From a virus, in the IMG/VR virus record IMGVR_UViG_3300032046_000042, positions 1 through 48,037 of that record: DNA of 48,037 nt. One strand, written 5' to 3'. A model generated the notes under the pieces. That model ran no database searches. It worked only from the letters and a program-made list of their open reading frames with translations, and was not told where the DNA came from. Below, piece by piece: positions 17,307 through 23,026 of the stretch; the first letter of the stretch is position 1, and every line of letters starts with the position of its first letter. Position numbers and translations under genes: made by a program.

Positions 17307-17334
17307 AAAAAAACGCCCGCCGGTTAAAGCGGGC
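17307..17334 (-). terminator. Intrinsic terminator after the DUF932 gene
   Basis: On the - strand GCCCGC, loop TTTAACCG, GCGGGC, one base, then seven T. A perfect 6-bp GC stem. It begins 8 bases after the DUF932 stop and isolates that gene from recT. Confidence 0.88.
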
Positions 17335-17341
17335 ATCGTTG

Positions 17342-18373
17342 TTATGCAGCAATGGCTAATGCTTTCCATTGCGATTGTGGCAACTCAATTATCTGCCCAC
17401 CCATACGCTCAAAGTCTGTAGCGCGGTCATAGTCCTCAATGTCTTGAGAATGTCGCGTTAAGGCATTGAGCAATCCGTATGCGGTTAAATCACCGCCAGT
17501 TAGCAAGTGTTGAAGCACTCCACGCTTTTCGCTTTCTTGCAGCGTAAAATGTTTCTGTACCCGCTCGACAACTTCGATAGGGTCAACTTCCATAATCATT
17601 CCTTTAGTGCGCTGCATCTCGGCGACTATTGCATCGAATCCTAATTGATTGACTGACGCTCGAACCGTGTCTTGAACTTGCATCCAAAACGCTTTGTCCG
17701 TCATTGCCATAGTTTCAGGTCTGAAGATTTCCATTGCCGACTCGCCAATGCCGGATGCTTTTCCAACATGGTATTTTCTTGTTGCCATGTTACTGATCAT
17801 ACCATTGAGGCATACGAGTCGAAACACCAACGGCTCAACCCGCAAACTTCCGCTTCCGATTTCTGAATTAGAAATTACTACGCCGCTTTGCACAATGTCG
17901 CCTTTAGCAACTTCGCCCTGTATGCGCGGAAACAATGCCTTGATATACATTCGCTTGTCCGTCAACTCACTGGACACTATTTGCATATCAGGAGTTTCTT
18001 GCAATACAGGCAACACCGCCTCGGCAAGATCATAATTATCAAGTGCGCGGTAACGGTCAGACAAGAATGCACGCGCCGAACCATCAAGCGTTCTGATCAT
18101 TCGTTTAGCAGGGTCTTTGTGCAACCAATGGTTTGCATTAGTGGCGCGTAACTCCGCTGGCATTTTGTCCCAATACTTTTTGGGTATGTCGCAGTGTGTA
18201 GCAACCTGATTAGAACAATGACTCGTCATGCTCAACGCGCCTTGCCCGTCAATCAACAACTGACCATCATCACTCAAAGACAACTTGCGGCTGTCCGCTA
18301 CAAAGTCGCGCTTGGCTGATTGTTGACGGTCAAGTTCTACTGCTAACTGCGTAAGTGTTTTACCTGTTTTCAT
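17342..18373 (-). CDS. DUF932 family protein
   Basis: 343 residues from the ATG at 18373; GGAG lies 6 bases before it, whereas the ATG at 18379 touches the site. The DUF932 pattern is clear: FLSDRYRALDNYDLAEAVLP, VVISNSEIGSGSLRVEPLVFRLVCLNGMI, and a C-terminal LTAYGLLNALTRHSQDIEDYDRATDFE. Such proteins occur widely on phages and plasmids near recombination genes; function is unknown. It is the only gene in this region bracketed by a hammerhead ribozyme (5') and a strong terminator (3'), so it would have its own monocistronic message. Confidence 0.9.
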   Translation of the reverse strand: MKTGKTLTQLAVELDRQQSAKRDFVADSRKLSLSDDGQLLIDGQGALSMTSHCSNQVATHCDIPKKYWDKMPAELRATNANHWLHKDPAKRMIRTLDGSARAFLSDRYRALDNYDLAEAVLPVLQETPDMQIVSSELTDKRMYIKALFPRIQGEVAKGDIVQSGVVISNSEIGSGSLRVEPLVFRLVCLNGMISNMATRKYHVGKASGIGESAMEIFRPETMAMTDKAFWMQVQDTVRASVNQLGFDAIVAEMQRTKGMIMEVDPIEVVERVQKHFTLQESEKRGVLQHLLTGGDLTAYGLLNALTRHSQDIEDYDRATDFERMGGQIIELPQSQWKALAIAA

Positions 18374-18398
18374 AATCATCTCCGTTTACATTAAGTTT

Positions 18399-18447
18399 CT
18401 GTTTCGTCCTTTTGGACTCATCAGTGTTGATACACATCAACAAACAG
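18399..18447 (-). ncRNA. Hammerhead ribozyme 2 (type III), upstream of the DUF932 gene
   Basis: All parts are present on the - strand. Stem III CUGU (18447-18444) pairs with ACAG (18402-18399). Cleavage triplet GUU, cut after U18443. Stem I UGUUGAU (18442-18436), loop GUGU, AUCAACA (18431-18425). Core CUGAUGA (18424-18418). Stem II GUCC, loop AAAA, GGAC (18417-18406). Core GAAA (18405-18402). Every invariant core base matches the family consensus. It lies in the 102-base gap between two genes, 26 bases before the DUF932 ATG. Confidence 0.93.
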
Positions 18448-18448
18448 C

Positions 18449-18464
18449 GGCGCGTCCGTGCGCC
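18449..18464 (-). other. Hairpin abutting hammerhead 2
   Basis: On the - strand GGCGC, loop ACGGAC, GCGCC, then a single G before ribozyme stem III. After self-cleavage this would be the last stable helix of the upstream RNA and could shield its 3' end. Hammerhead 1 has a hairpin at the same spacing. Confidence 0.75.
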
Positions 18465-18475
18465 ACAATTCATCC

Positions 18476-18688
18476 TTAAAAGTTAATTGGCAAGTGTGTT
18501 GCGATTTGTTGCGCCAAATTGACTGTACCGTACTTTCGTATTTTATCCTCCCACGCCTCGTAAGAAATACTGTAGGTGTATTTTCCATTGCTTACACAGA
18601 TAAAGTTACCGCTGCTGGTAAATGTATAACCACGCAACTCTATAACTGCGTTTGCCACATCGGTAAAGGTTCGAGTTTTGTCTATCAT
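18476..18688 (-). CDS. Hypothetical small protein
   Basis: 70 residues from the ATG at 18688, with AAAAGGAGAA upstream; the longer frame to 18769 lacks a site. Beta-rich centre (GYTFTSSGNFICVSNGKYTYSISYEAW). It is the last gene before hammerhead 2. Not recognised. Confidence 0.7.
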   Translation of the reverse strand: MIDKTRTFTDVANAVIELRGYTFTSSGNFICVSNGKYTYSISYEAWEDKIRKYGTVNLAQQIATHLPINF

Positions 18689-18701
18689 TTCTTTTCTCCT
18701 T

Positions 18702-18902
18702 TTAAGAAACTTTGAAGGTGTCGCAAACAACACCAAGTAGATGATCATAACTTCCTGACTTGGCATCATCCATAAATGTTTTTATTTCTTCTGCCGTGCA
18801 ATCGTTCTCTCTCATTGCATGCTGGCATCGACCAAGTATTGCGAAAGCGTTTCCATCTTCGCCTACAAGTTTTACTTTTACTTTGTTGAGTGGCTTCTTC
18901 AT
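18702..18902 (-). CDS. Hypothetical small protein
   Basis: 66 residues from the third of three in-frame ATGs (18908, 18905, 18902), the one best spaced from AAGGAG. Basic at the start (KKPLNKVKVKLVG), then EDGNAFAILGRCQHAMRE, a pattern seen in small phage proteins of unknown role. Overlaps the preceding gene's end. Confidence 0.7.
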   Translation of the reverse strand: MKKPLNKVKVKLVGEDGNAFAILGRCQHAMRENDCTAEEIKTFMDDAKSGSYDHLLGVVCDTFKVS

Positions 18903-18904
18903 CA

Positions 18905-19426
18905 TCATTCTCCTTTTGTGGTTGGGGTTAAAATTTTATAAACTTCTTGAAACAGTGCTGGCAGCAAAACCTTATTGATTCTTTCTGCCATGTCCTTATC
19001 TTTAATCGCTTCGGGGTTGTCGGTTGTAGTCAAGTGACTGCCGCCTCTGCCCGTTACTTCGGCACATTCTTGAAGCGTATAGAACGACTGCATTAAGTCA
19101 GACAGCTTCCAACTTTCGCTTTCTGATAAAACAGTTTCTTTTAATACCTGATTGATATGGTGCAAGTATTTTCCATCGCTGTCCTCTTTGTTAAGAAAGC
19201 CTTTCCAATGGGAATGAGAAGTAATATCTTTTGCAAATATAGGATTCGCTTGATTGGTATACACCTCTACATTTCCGAATGACCAATACCAACCGCATGA
19301 CCACTCCGCTGCCTCAAGCCATATTAACTCGCGGTACTGATCACGACCAATTAAATACACATCCTTTCCATTAGGAAAAAATGCTTGCGTCTTTGTCTTT
19401 GGAAGATAAGTTGTAAGTGTTTGCAT
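18905..19426 (-). CDS. Hypothetical protein
   Basis: 173 residues from the ATG at 19426, six bases after GGAGA. Aromatic-rich centre (WLEAAEWSCGWYWSFGNVEVY) and SHSHWKGFLN, ending in helices. I recall similar proteins of unknown function in other phages but cannot name a family. Confidence 0.75.
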   Translation of the reverse strand: MQTLTTYLPKTKTQAFFPNGKDVYLIGRDQYRELIWLEAAEWSCGWYWSFGNVEVYTNQANPIFAKDITSHSHWKGFLNKEDSDGKYLHHINQVLKETVLSESESWKLSDLMQSFYTLQECAEVTGRGGSHLTTTDNPEAIKDKDMAERINKVLLPALFQEVYKILTPTTKGE

Positions 19427-19428
19427 GA

Positions 19429-19620
19429 TCATTCTCCTTGGCAGATTAAAACAAAATAGCGATGGCGTTGATCTTTCAGAAATTCAACGGTTGCGGGATA
19501 ACGCTCCCGTACTATTTCCTCACTGTACTTATTCAACGCTTCCGCTTCTGGCGCGGTCAATATGTGTCCGGTGTATGTTCTGTATCCTGCTGATACAGGC
19601 GGTACGGCATCTGCTTGCAT
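19429..19620 (-). CDS. Hypothetical small protein
   Basis: 63 residues from the ATG at 19620, six bases after AAGGAGC. Helical centre (TAPEAEALNKYSEEIVRERYPATVEFLKD). The stop is next to the following start. Not recognised. Confidence 0.7.
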   Translation of the reverse strand: MQADAVPPVSAGYRTYTGHILTAPEAEALNKYSEEIVRERYPATVEFLKDQRHRYFVLICQGE

Positions 19621-19622
19621 GA

Positions 19623-19928
19623 TCACGCTCCTTCTTGATTGGTTGTCTGTACGCCTTTTTCACTCGCCCTTCTCTTTGTTGCTTGTCGCTCATAGTGTCG
19701 CGCCTCATTGCTCTGCCGCATCTCGTTTATCACGGCTTGCAACTGATCAATCGTTGACTCGTTAAATTCAACAACTCCTTCTTTATTCAATACCTTCAGA
19801 AGAAATATCGCGTCCAATGATATTGAGTAGCAATTATTTATTGGCACACGACCATTGCCCGCAATTTGTCGCACAATAGAAAAACTGCTTTCGTGTATCG
19901 AATCAAGCGCACTGATTAAATTACTCAT
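19623..19928 (-). CDS. Hypothetical protein
   Basis: 101 residues from the ATG at 19928; the longer frame to 19940 begins at a GTG that is part of the ribosome-binding site GTGGAGAT. Predominantly helical with a basic C-terminus (ARHYERQATKRRASEK). Its stop is just before the next start. Not recognised. Confidence 0.7.
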   Translation of the reverse strand: MSNLISALDSIHESSFSIVRQIAGNGRVPINNCYSISLDAIFLLKVLNKEGVVEFNESTIDQLQAVINEMRQSNEARHYERQATKRRASEKGVQTTNQEGA

Positions 19929-20172
19929 GTTGATCTCCACTTATAATCGCATAAAGATTCTTAACTGCGAGTGCTGCTTCATCTCGCCGTTCTTCTGCCC
20001 ACTTAATGCGTTCCACAATATCGTGACCAGTAACAAGTATTTCTCCTGATGAGTTTGACTTATATAACGGGATACAAAAAACCTTCCCGTGGTAATTGCT
20101 ATCAAGGTGGACAACATTCTCAACACGGTTGAGGTTATATGTTTTATTCAATTTATCTTGTAAGTCATTCAT
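19921..20172 (-). CDS. Hypothetical small protein
   Basis: 83 residues with a strong AAAAGGAGAT site. A beta-rich first half and a C-terminal helix (IVERIKWAEERRDEAALAVKNLY). It overlaps the next gene by 8 bases. Not recognised. Confidence 0.7.
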   Translation of the reverse strand: MNDLQDKLNKTYNLNRVENVVHLDSNYHGKVFCIPLYKSNSSGEILVTGHDIVERIKWAEERRDEAALAVKNLYAIISGDQHE

Positions 20173-20185
20173 TTTGAATCTCCTT

Positions 20186-20395
20186 TTATCCGTTACGAGA
20201 AAAACTGCCCATCACTGGAACAGTCGTTTTTTTGTTTTCGTTTACCAATCGTTCTCCGCTTGGCGTGTACAGTAAAACTTTTTTGTCCTTTGCATATCGA
20301 GCAATCGTTCCATCATTTAGTTGAATAACATCCACGCCGGTGAAAAGCATTTTCAATTCAGCAATGGTTCTTGTTGCTACCAATGTGTCGCGCAT
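20186..20395 (-). CDS. Hypothetical small protein
   Basis: 69 residues with the AAAAGGAGAT site. A short helix followed by beta strands (VDVIQLNDGTIARYAKDKKVLLY). Not recognised. Confidence 0.7.
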   Translation of the reverse strand: MRDTLVATRTIAELKMLFTGVDVIQLNDGTIARYAKDKKVLLYTPSGERLVNENKKTTVPVMGSFSRNG

Positions 20396-20420
20396 AACCT
20401 ATCTCCTTTTGGTTGGTTGA

Positions 20421-21287
20421 TTATTCAATCTCGGAAGTGATGTTTTGTATTTGCCGCAATGCAGTGAGCTTTTCTTCCATTATAGGCAGACCACCTGCTT
20501 CATTTACAAACTCAATCATTTCTTTTATTTTTTCCACGCCTCCATTATCCGTAAGCAAGTCCATACCTTCTTCAACTTCATCCGAGCCGCCATACTCTTC
20601 ACACAACTCCATAAACTTTTCGATCCCGTCCATGCCGCCAAGCTCGTCTACCTTTTCCATAGTTTCCCTTACCGAGTCAATGTCGTTCTCTCTTTCAAAA
20701 AATTCCAATCTATCAATCGCTTCGTCCGTGCTTATGTATTTTAGTTTTTTCAATAACTCTTGGATGTTATTTGGCGATATATCCAGCTTTGTCATTGTTT
20801 GGATGAATGCCGCTGCGTCATCAATACTAAATTCCGATTCAGCAATCGCCTCGGTAAGCAAGTCTTTTGCTCTGACCATTTCTCTGACTACTATTATTTC
20901 TTCAAGGATTTGTTTTTGAGTTGTAATTATTATTTCTTCATTGGTGAAAGTTTCTTGCGTGGTGTCGTTTGCAATCATATTGCTTTCTGAATTTGCTACA
21001 CAGATTGAAGTCGTTGCTGTATTCATCTCGGTATCTCCTTTTGAATTATAAACAGAAAGGTTTGCTTGATTATTACTGCACACAAGGTTGGAGCAGTCCG
21101 AGCAATCTATGCAAGCGTCACAGCCAGTACAATACTTGCAGCCTTCACAGTTCCAGCATCCATTGTTTGTTTCGTTATCGTTTGAAAAATCTGGATGACC
21201 ATGTGCAAACTCAAGAGTCACACCGTTTATCAACTTGTCTGCACGCTCAAGAAATTCTTTGTGGCTTTGGAAAATTTCGGTTCTCAT
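20421..21287 (-). CDS. Cysteine-rich / acidic helical protein, possibly two genes fused in frame
   Basis: 288 residues from the ATG at 21287, which has AAAAGGAGAT upstream. Residues about 45-75 hold ten cysteines in closely spaced CxxC pairs (CWNCEGCKYCTGCDAC, then CIDCSDCSNLVC), a likely metal site. After residue 85 the frame runs through a perfect copy of the early ribosome-binding site (CAAAAGGAGAT) and an ATG at 21026, and the remaining 201 residues form an acidic helical protein with repeated EEYGGSDEVEEGMD / NGGVEKIKEMIE-like units. Either a fusion has kept the old start, or both forms are made. No family recognised. Confidence 0.7.
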   Translation of the reverse strand: MRTEIFQSHKEFLERADKLINGVTLEFAHGHPDFSNDNETNNGCWNCEGCKYCTGCDACIDCSDCSNLVCSNNQANLSVYNSKGDTEMNTATTSICVANSESNMIANDTTQETFTNEEIIITTQKQILEEIIVVREMVRAKDLLTEAIAESEFSIDDAAAFIQTMTKLDISPNNIQELLKKLKYISTDEAIDRLEFFERENDIDSVRETMEKVDELGGMDGIEKFMELCEEYGGSDEVEEGMDLLTDNGGVEKIKEMIEFVNEAGGLPIMEEKLTALRQIQNITSEIE

Positions 21288-21421
21288 TTTGCATCTCCTT
21301 TTACTATTGATAATAAACGACAAGCTCCAGCCAATGTTTCATCAAGGAATTCTTCTTTCTTTCCATTGACCATTGCCACCAATAACCATCTGCCATTTTG
21401 GAACTTCGCTATCATTTCCAT
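21284..21421 (-). CDS. Hypothetical 45-residue protein
   Basis: From the ATG at 21421 with AAAAGGAGATAC upstream. Reads MEMIAKFQNGRWLLVAMVNGKKEEF and then a short helix. The longer frame to 21514 overlaps the small membrane gene and has no site. Its stop overlaps the next start. Confidence 0.65.
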   Translation of the reverse strand: MEMIAKFQNGRWLLVAMVNGKKEEFLDETLAGACRLLSIVKGDAK

Positions 21422-21534
21422 TTTGTATCTCCTTTTGGTTTGTCGGGATTGATTAACTCTGCTACGAGGTACGAAAGCAAAATAGAACCAAAGATTATAA
21501 ATAACAATGTGCAAGCATTAAACAGCATATCCAT
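21412..21534 (-). CDS. 40-residue single-span membrane protein
   Basis: ATG at 21534 preceded by AAGGAGAA. One transmembrane span (LFNACTLLFIIFGSILLSYLVAEL) and a basic C-terminal tail. It ends just inside the next gene (10-base overlap). Site strength and packing argue that it is real despite its size. Role unknown. Confidence 0.6.
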   Translation of the reverse strand: MDMLFNACTLLFIIFGSILLSYLVAELINPDKPKGDTKWK

Positions 21535-21540
21535 TTCTCC

Positions 21541-21774
21541 TTAATAACAACGGACTGGTTGATCAAACAATCTGCCACCGTGTTTTAATCGGTTGCTCAT
21601 GTTGTCGTATTTAACTTTAGAAATTGTTTCTCCTTCAACAGTATAGTAATTATCATCCGCTTCCAGTTTTATAATCTCCTTCCAATAATCACTCGGAGAA
21701 TTAAACTTTTCAAGCGTATAAAAAATATCACCTTCAAGACCTTCTGTTGTGATGATTGAATAAATATACTTCAT
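21541..21774 (-). CDS. Hypothetical small protein
   Basis: 77 residues, acidic, aromatic-rich (DIFYTLEKFNSPSDYWKEI). A GGAG site precedes the ATG. Not recognised. Confidence 0.7.
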   Translation of the reverse strand: MKYIYSIITTEGLEGDIFYTLEKFNSPSDYWKEIIKLEADDNYYTVEGETISKVKYDNMSNRLKHGGRLFDQPVRCY

Positions 21775-21777
21775 AAC

Positions 21778-22011
21778 TCACTCCTTGTTTATCTTTGGGA
21801 AGTTTGTTTCTACATATTGTAAAAACGGGTCTTGCTCCAATTCGTCTTGCTCTTGCGCCAATATCTCAAGCACCGTATTGGCAGTGATTCCCATAATGAT
21901 AAAAGCTAATGCTCGTTCCGAGCCGCTCATTCTATTGATATACTCGGACAATGATTCCATGCTGTTGTGCGTGGCAAACATATTAGACTTTCTATCTCGT
22001 AAGTTACTCAT
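21778..22011 (-). CDS. Hypothetical small protein
   Basis: 77 residues, acidic C-terminus, with a moderately hydrophobic centre (ALAFIIMGITANTVLEILA) that could be buried or membrane-associated. The AAAAGGAGAT site lies in the end of the upstream gene, which overlaps by 4 bases. Not recognised. Confidence 0.7.
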   Translation of the reverse strand: MSNLRDRKSNMFATHNSMESLSEYINRMSGSERALAFIIMGITANTVLEILAQEQDELEQDPFLQYVETNFPKINKE

Positions 22012-22376
22012 GCTGCTATCTCCTTTTGGTTGTGGTTAATTGTTTCCGCTTCAAGCATTGCCATAACTTGTATATATTGCCGCCTAATCGCATCACCATA
22101 GTATCGCGCTTCAAAATCAGTAGCGCGTTTTTTCATTGCAAGCTCTCGTATCATGCTGGTGTGATAATCGTTTAGGAATCCGTAGGCGACATGCCAACCG
22201 CATTTAACTATGTTGGCATCCACGGCATCACAAATAGCATCATTCAACTTCATCTTCAAAGCGTGTGCGCCATTTGGATTGAAGTATTCAAACTTCAGCA
22301 AGTCAATGTTGCTCCAATGCTTGTTTGGCGCGGTTGCTTTTTCGCTAATGTGCAAATACTTTTCTAATCGGTTCAT
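22008..22376 (-). CDS. Hypothetical protein
   Basis: 122 residues with a strong AAAAGGAGAT site. Helical, with KCGWHVAYGFLNDYHTSM in the centre and a glutamine/isoleucine-rich end. Not recognised. Confidence 0.7.
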   Translation of the reverse strand: MNRLEKYLHISEKATAPNKHWSNIDLLKFEYFNPNGAHALKMKLNDAICDAVDANIVKCGWHVAYGFLNDYHTSMIRELAMKKRATDFEARYYGDAIRRQYIQVMAMLEAETINHNQKEIAA

Positions 22377-22399
22377 GTCTATCTCCTTTTGATCAGTGA

Positions 22400-22612
22400 T
22401 TAAAATTCAAACGCAGTGAACAACAAACTTCCTTTCTTTACATATATGCACAAACTAATATCAGACCAATCATCCAACTGATATTTTTTCATCTCCCTAC
22501 AATACCCAACAACTCGATAAACCTTTGCGGCATTCGCTTTTCGTTTTATCAGCTCACCTTTTAATGTTTCTACTTTCGCATAACCTTCCGGTATCGCTAT
22601 GTCGTGTTTCAT
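22400..22612 (-). CDS. Hypothetical small protein, first gene after hammerhead 1
   Basis: 70 residues from the ATG at 22612, preceded by GGAGAAG. A longer frame to 22708 would be read through the hammerhead and its hairpin, so I reject that start. The downstream ribozyme product would begin 68 bases before this ATG with a 5'-hydroxyl end. Basic N-terminal half, beta-rich C-terminus. Not recognised. Confidence 0.75.
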   Translation of the reverse strand: MKHDIAIPEGYAKVETLKGELIKRKANAAKVYRVVGYCREMKKYQLDDWSDISLCIYVKKGSLLFTAFEF

Positions 22613-22636
22613 TTTGCTTCTCCATTTATAAATTTC

Positions 22637-22685
22637 CGGTTTCGCCATTCGTGGCTCATCAGCACAGACCATTATCTGTGTACCG
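22637..22685 (-). ncRNA. Hammerhead ribozyme 1 (type III), early-operon leader
   Basis: Complete on the - strand. Stem III CGGU (22685-22682) pairs with ACCG (22640-22637). Cleavage triplet GUA, cut between A22681 and C22680. Stem I CACAGA (22680-22675), loop UAAUGG, UCUGUG (22668-22663). Core CUGAUGA (22662-22656). Stem II GCC, loop ACGAAU, GGC (22655-22644), with the conserved G10.1-C11.1 pair. Core GAAA (22643-22640). Both internal loops are six bases and could form the loop-loop contact known from natural hammerheads. It lies in the untranslated leader of the leftward early genes. Confidence 0.94.
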
Positions 22686-22686
22686 C

Positions 22687-22722
22687 CCACAGTTGCACAC
22701 ATCCTCATGACTTCAACTGTGG
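22687..22722 (-). other. Perfect 9-bp hairpin abutting hammerhead 1
   Basis: On the - strand CCACAGUUG (22722-22714), 18-base loop, CAACUGUGG (22695-22687), then a single G before ribozyme stem III. The loop contains a GAGG and ATG that might mimic a start site. As with hammerhead 2, the hairpin would cap the 3' end of the released upstream RNA. Confidence 0.8.
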
Positions 22723-22985
22723 AAAGTATTTATATGGACTGCGGCTTGTTACAAGGTAACTTCTTATCGCTCGTCAGTATCCAGTTGTTTATTTGCCTTG
22801 CCCTGTGACTCGCACTTGTTATGGGCTACGGCGGTGTGTTTCAACACCCTAACTAGATTGACCGCAAGCGATCTCCCCGTCCCGACAATATCCAGTGCCG
22901 TTCTGCTTTCGCGTTTTATAGCCCGTTCGCTTTTCGCGTGTACTGTCATCGCGACAGTGCGGGCGTCCATATATGCCGTGAGGCG
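22723..22985 (-). ncRNA. Candidate structured leader RNA
   Basis: A GC-richer island in AT-rich surroundings. UAUAUGGAC (22973-22965) pairs perfectly over 9 bp with GUCCAUAUA (22739-22731), closing a multibranch domain of about 240 nt. Inside: GCCCG/CGGGC (22964-22921) enclosing ACUGUC/GACAGU and CGC-GAAAA-GCG hairpins as a three-way junction; GAUCG-CUUG-CGGUC (22873-22860); GGUGU/ACACC (22848-22833); GUUAC-CUU-GUAAC (22760-22748). Its 3' end would be made by hammerhead 1. A 68-residue frame here lacks a ribosome-binding site. I cannot match it to a named RNA class. Confidence 0.5.
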
Positions 22986-23026
22986 ATGGCGCGTTTTATT
23001 TTATGTATTTATTGGAACATATTAAA

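Follow-up and report, generated by a model that had tools for sequence, protein, structure and literature searches.

Hammerhead ribozymes occur in clusters in prophages, where they flank genes, and Perreault et al. proposed in 2011 that they cut long transcripts into operon- or single-gene mRNAs; cleavage was shown for three tandem arrangements in vitro and for one in vivo, in E. coli (PMC3088659). In 2023, the biological reason why self-cleaving ribozymes of bacteria show their gene associations was still called unknown (PMC10085705). Here we analysed the complete IMG/VR virus record IMGVR_UViG_3300032046_000042 (48,037 bases; the window), in which two type III hammerheads lie 4,238 nucleotides (nt) apart on the minus strand and flank co-directional phage genes. 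The locus therefore has the layout of the clustered prophage hammerheads (at least two on one strand, flanking genes or short gene blocks). Directly upstream of each ribozyme stands a separate hairpin. The same combination is found across dozens of unrelated phages and bacteria, a distribution suggesting that phages use it to protect the end of every piece of a long message. The text of the 2011 paper, searched for ‘hairpin’ and ‘terminator’, describes neither a separate hairpin abutting a type III hammerhead nor 3′-end capping nor DUF932. We found no mention of the adjoining hairpin in the open-access literature, subscription papers and supplements being outside the search, and the hairpin rule for type III hammerheads is likely to be the new part of this work.

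Both ribozymes have an exact conserved core, CUGANGA and GAAA joined by stem II, at 22662-22641 in hammerhead 1 (22637..22685, minus strand) and at 18424-18403 in hammerhead 2 (18399..18447, minus strand). At each site stem I (6–8 base pairs (bp)) and stem II (4 bp) are closed by loops and the 4-bp stem III is open, as expected for type III. Stem III pairs CGGT (22685-22682) with ACCG (22640-22637) at site 1, and CTGT (18447-18444) with ACAG (18402-18399) at site 2. A UH cleavage site that pairs with A15.1 is present in both (GUA^ and GUU^), and the predicted cuts are 22681^22680 (GUA^C; A22681^C22680) and 18443^18442 (GUU^U; T18443^T18442), which would leave the 6-nt tails GCGGUA and GCUGUU, respectively, on the upstream products. 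The helix lengths and coordinates given for both ribozymes in the original prediction were right, as read from the sequence. The RF00008 (Hammerhead_3) model matches 22634-22688(-) with 28.7 bits (one-genome E value of 9.6e-6) and 18396-18450(-) with 40 bits (6.2e-9); against all Rfam families in the searched stretches the E values are 2.6e-5 (site 2, window) and 0.00042. Core, three stems, open stem III and allowed cut sites agree with this family, whereas both scores fall below its curated gathering cut-off of 48.5 bits and the adjoining hairpin lies outside the model. The window holds exactly two copies of the core pattern CTGATGA-N4..24-CGAAAC, where 0.07 would be expected, and 0 of 100 shuffles reached two. 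The hammerhead appears in the minimum-free-energy fold at site 1. Judged by their complete cores, stems and allowed cut sites, both motifs are real hammerheads, and self-cleavage is predicted.

Hairpin 1 (22687..22722, minus strand), which is seen in the sequence, the fold and an energy scan, has 9 bp (extendable to 10) and an 18-nt loop; its arms are CCACAGTTG (22722-22714) and CAACTGTGG (22695-22687), followed by G22686. Hairpin 2 (18449..18464, minus strand) has 5 bp (extendable to 7; −12.5 kcal/mol in the 7-bp form) and a 6-nt loop, with the arms GGCGC (18464-18460) and GCGCC (18453-18449) followed by G18448, and it begins 11 nt past the stop codon of the upstream gene, the last of a block of small genes. 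Both hairpins end 6 nt ahead of their cut. The original prediction saw one shared architecture of hairpin, exactly one unpaired G and hammerhead. The pairing of hairpin and type III hammerhead is real and general, as the survey below documents; the single unpaired G is less certain, since in both hairpins it can be drawn into the stem, giving the 10-bp and 7-bp versions found by the energy scan. Nor is it conserved, and we rejected a rule of exactly one unpaired G; what holds is a tail of about 5–7 nt.

Our survey drew on IMG/VR (three pattern scans) and on GTDB genomes (one scan), with hammerheads picked regardless of their upstream sequence. Because most of them fall short of Rfam’s curated threshold, we relied on a descriptor script, which sorted them by topology and removed near-duplicates. 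A hairpin was counted if it reached −6 kcal/mol or lower and ended 4–8 nt upstream of the cut; control positions lay 60–180 nt upstream. In the non-redundant IMG/VR type III set, 65 of 118 hammerheads carry such a hairpin, compared with 3, 4, 0 and 2 at the control offsets, and per-position counts peak at 55 hairpins for a 6-nt tail, where the background is 0.8. The independent GTDB set, many loci of which are from Patescibacteria, gave hairpins at 53 of 87 type III hammerheads (controls, 4–13). A looser fold test gave 79–89 of 115 versus 22–29. Compared with matched intergenic stretches, 75% and 63% of stop-to-hammerhead intervals contain a hairpin versus 25% and 29% of those after other stop codons; hairpins are thus 2–3 times commoner before hammerheads than in other post-stop intergenic stretches, and those before hammerheads share one fixed end position. 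Many of these hairpins have UUCG or GNRA tetraloops, and frequent UCAA loops may reflect related phages.

The hairpin is one-sided and specific to one topology. In the type III set there is no hairpin excess just 3′ of stem III, and no hairpin peak stands ahead of type I (N = 163) or type II (N = 20) motifs. Cleavage of types I and II would leave the closed stem III hairpin and one further base at the 3′ end of the upstream product; these stem III hairpins have median energies of −8.7 and −11.4 kcal/mol, respectively. Such capping is a consequence of topology and does not count as independent evidence. Within type III, tail length is independent of stem III length (slope 0.11, p = 0.15, N = 117; standard deviation of 1.27 for the tail and 1.50 for the gap). 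Because the tail stays at about 5–7 nt whatever the length of stem III, a constraint on the tail is favoured over stacking on stem III.

The units are also placed consistently: only 1 of 121 type III hammerheads lies inside a long open reading frame (ORF), hairpins begin a median of 9 nt past the stop codon, the cut lies a median of 43 nt beyond the stop codon, and in about half of cases the next start codon follows the cut by 64–100 nt. A common target gene was rejected, as the flanking genes are diverse and mostly of unknown function. So was a switch in which the 3′ tail pairs upstream of the hairpin; across 106 units such pairing was below the shuffled expectation.

Several contigs in the survey carry rows of these ribozymes. 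Two or three type III hammerheads each were found in the viral contigs L219, L229, L230, L241, L247, L255, L270, L277, L278, L291, L317 and L318, most of which have hairpins that differ in sequence within a single genome; TCAA loops recur often in these multi-hammerhead viral contigs and may mark a group of related phages. Successive type III hammerheads, three or four per contig, also occur in uncultured bacteria (L437, L438, L490, L395 and L416), and many of them adjoin a hairpin.

We consider it probable, with moderate confidence, that hairpin and type III hammerhead together form a ribozyme-made 3′-end element that gives mRNAs hairpin-protected ends. The order of the unit would be stop codon, about 10 nt, hairpin, 5–7 nt, cut, the rest of the type III ribozyme and the next gene. 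Transcription would pass through the unit, and the ribozyme, once made, would fold and cut. The upstream message would retain the hairpin and a 6-nt tail ending in a 2′,3′-cyclic phosphate, a poor substrate for 3′ exonucleases, and the downstream message would begin flush with stem I and carry a 5′-OH. Exonucleases that act from the 3′ end need a longer single-stranded tail and disfavour a cyclic phosphate. A separate hairpin would be needed in type III because types I and II cap the upstream product by their closed stem III, which type III lacks. With two units of this kind, a single leftward transcript of the phage would be divided into a leader RNA, a 4.2-kilobase (kb) small-gene message and a DUF932 message ending at a terminator, and the second cut would both give the 4.2-kb block its hairpin-capped 3′ end and free DUF932. 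The pieces could in this way meet different fates.

The hairpin might instead serve the ribozyme, by folding first and keeping the 5′ strand of stem III free, or by stacking on a short stem III, so that cotranscriptional cutting is fast and reliable. The hairpin does abut stem III (no other gap is as common as 0, seen in 43 of 117), stem III is a short helix, with a median of 5 bp, and an upstream position would also suit a folding guide. However, stems III with an adjoining hairpin are not significantly weaker than those without (energy, p = 0.64; length, p = 0.09), tail length is unrelated to stem III length, and hairpins are missing both just 3′ of stem III, where stacking would be equally possible, and before type I motifs, which would be equally in need of a guide. 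A hairpin that is upstream only and type III only, with an unweakened stem III and a fixed tail, fits a constraint on the 3′ tail better than ribozyme stacking or folding, and we regard a folding aid as unlikely. Less likely still is that the hammerheads chiefly lower or time the downstream gene, through decay signalled by the 5′-OH end or through loss of translation coupling. The glmS ribozyme offers a precedent, as it cuts itself within a bacterial mRNA and the resulting 5′-OH end decides what becomes of the RNA downstream, but its fold is unrelated and metabolite-dependent, and no ligand is suggested for the phage hammerheads here. Cuts that precede the next start by 64–100 nt in about half of cases would suit such control, as would the recurrence of hammerheads just before DUF932 in three relatives (L010, L033 and L084). 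Downstream control nevertheless leaves the hairpin on the upstream product unexplained, the flanking genes are diverse, and the RNA downstream of a type III cut starts with a flush hairpin, which is usually stabilising.

The hairpins resemble, in several respects, intrinsic terminators and 3′ stabilising hairpins, in that they are GC-rich, stand soon after a stop codon, are often closed by UUCG or GNRA loops and would come to lie at the 3′ end of an mRNA. That they are intrinsic terminators or remnants of them, with the ribozyme incidental, is consistent with their position a median of 9 nt after stop codons, and hairpin 2 with the TGTTTGTT that follows it is terminator-like, by a loose scan only. 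Yet it is stem III and not a U run that follows the hairpin in nearly all cases, including site 1, where GCGGTACACAG is not U-rich, and the closest DUF932 relative; hairpin 1 was not flagged by the terminator scan, and termination at this point would keep the ribozyme from being made. We therefore hold this explanation to be very improbable. The element looks like a terminator with a ribozyme in place of the U tract: its 3′ end would be made by the ribozyme, with neither a U tract nor polymerase release, and transcription can continue. Circular messages, which the original prediction had thought conceivable, would require the 4.2-kb piece to be joined by an RtcB-type ligase. Although the end chemistry of any hammerhead product fits RtcB, Perreault et al. 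searched the products of tandem phage hammerheads for circles and spliced RNAs and found neither (PMC3088659), and no ligase was noted among the examined window genes, where no search aimed at RtcB was made. The idea is unsupported and scarcely credible here.

Several observations count against a protected mRNA end as the role of the hairpin. Depending on the test, 25–45% of type III hammerheads have no simple hairpin. The share with a hairpin varies by source—45 of 79 in the TGTGT scan, 9 of 23 in the generic pattern scan and 3 of 7 in the TAATNG scan—and both the largest viral set and the genome set were selected by one stem I loop motif (TGTGT). At site 2, the minimum-free-energy fold prefers a structure without stem III, which is a caution and not a refutation, because tertiary contacts, which stabilise hammerheads, do not enter the energy model. 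Among relatives of the window’s genes, most DUF932 homologues (about 76 of 82) have no hammerhead, and none were found beside relatives of DnaB or of a 175-amino-acid small-gene product.

The DUF932 homologues, gathered from IMG/VR, nevertheless include about 6 of 82 with hammerheads, and we conclude from the many without that the system is gained and lost readily. The closest relative (L010; 64% identity) has one hammerhead only, a point that the original prediction had missed; it is a type III at the syntenic position between a small ORF and DUF932. The position thus keeps both hairpin and ribozyme in this relative, although not in most others. Its hairpin differs in sequence and stands at the same place, GCCCC-GAAA-GGGGC followed by GCTGT-C^, and the GCTGTCGGGC after the hairpin is not U-rich. 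In L015, a type III hammerhead downstream of DUF932 has a 7-bp GC hairpin upstream of the ribozyme; the core of this hammerhead (L210:1501-1558) reads CCGATGA instead of CUGAUGA (U4 to C). Other relatives use closed topologies. L033 has two type II hammerheads and one type I, the latter just upstream of DUF932; type I hammerheads flank DUF932 on both sides in L011, and two lie about 4 kb upstream of it in L047. The early region of L084 (L084:2951-8492) contains at least nine hammerheads, eight of type II and one of type I, which separate almost all successive genes, and DUF932 lies alone between two cuts. This recurrence beside DUF932 fits a system that partitions transcripts, which was put forward for the window as well but had been proposed already in 2011 (PMC3088659).

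The window encodes tailed-phage genes (portal, prohead protease, capsid, minor tail protein, DnaB and RecT), and the ribozyme region is at the head of a leftward operon that runs via DUF932 to RecT and replication genes. The predicted 4,238-nt product between the cuts (18443..22680, minus strand) carries about fifteen small genes, all on one strand and with strong ribosome-binding sites, as read from ORFs and ribosome-binding sites in the sequence; the ‘early’ label that these genes had been given is unsupported. The DUF932 gene (17342..18379, minus strand; PF06067, E value of 1.4e-7; homologue alignment) probably starts at the ATG at 18373 and not at 18379, as its homologues begin MKxG and the position of the ribosome-binding site agrees. 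It is followed by an intrinsic terminator (17312..17337, minus strand), a 10-pair stem and then a T run. The interval, small-gene block, DUF932 gene and downstream terminator (17337-17312) are thus all present as had been described.

Upstream of cut 1, the first ribozyme would remove an apparently non-coding leader that the original prediction had passed over. This putative leader RNA (22681..23025, minus strand; its 5′ end is a guess) is about 340 nt long, has no clear gene and is strongly folded (z-score of −3.29; no shuffle folds as well), and it may be freed with a capped end. Its 68-amino-acid ORF lacks a ribosome-binding site and no homologues were found. A search of the leader in Rfam returned no family besides the hammerhead, and blastn of the two sites, the leader and the viral unit L270 against INPHARED found no match among named phages. 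Ahead of the leader, promoter-like matches were fewer than the shuffle mean and a consensus promoter was unconvincing.

Hammerheads of phages and bacteria have been known since 2011, and accounts of them still treat their function there as unproven (PMC3088659, PMC10085705). That the hairpin stands 5–7 nt ahead of the cut, and does so in just the topology in need of it, points to the purpose of the cut, namely a defined, protected mRNA end, and makes the question accessible to a simple lifetime assay in which a single hairpin is mutated. The unit may also be of use as a compact part for stable multi-gene transcripts. More tentatively, and at somewhat less than even chances, we propose that it is a widespread ‘ribozyme terminator’ of phages and some bacteria, many of them Patescibacteria, in which each gene block would be protected at its 3′ end while transcription continues, and that a hairpin-ended upstream RNA would be what all hammerhead topologies used in this way share.

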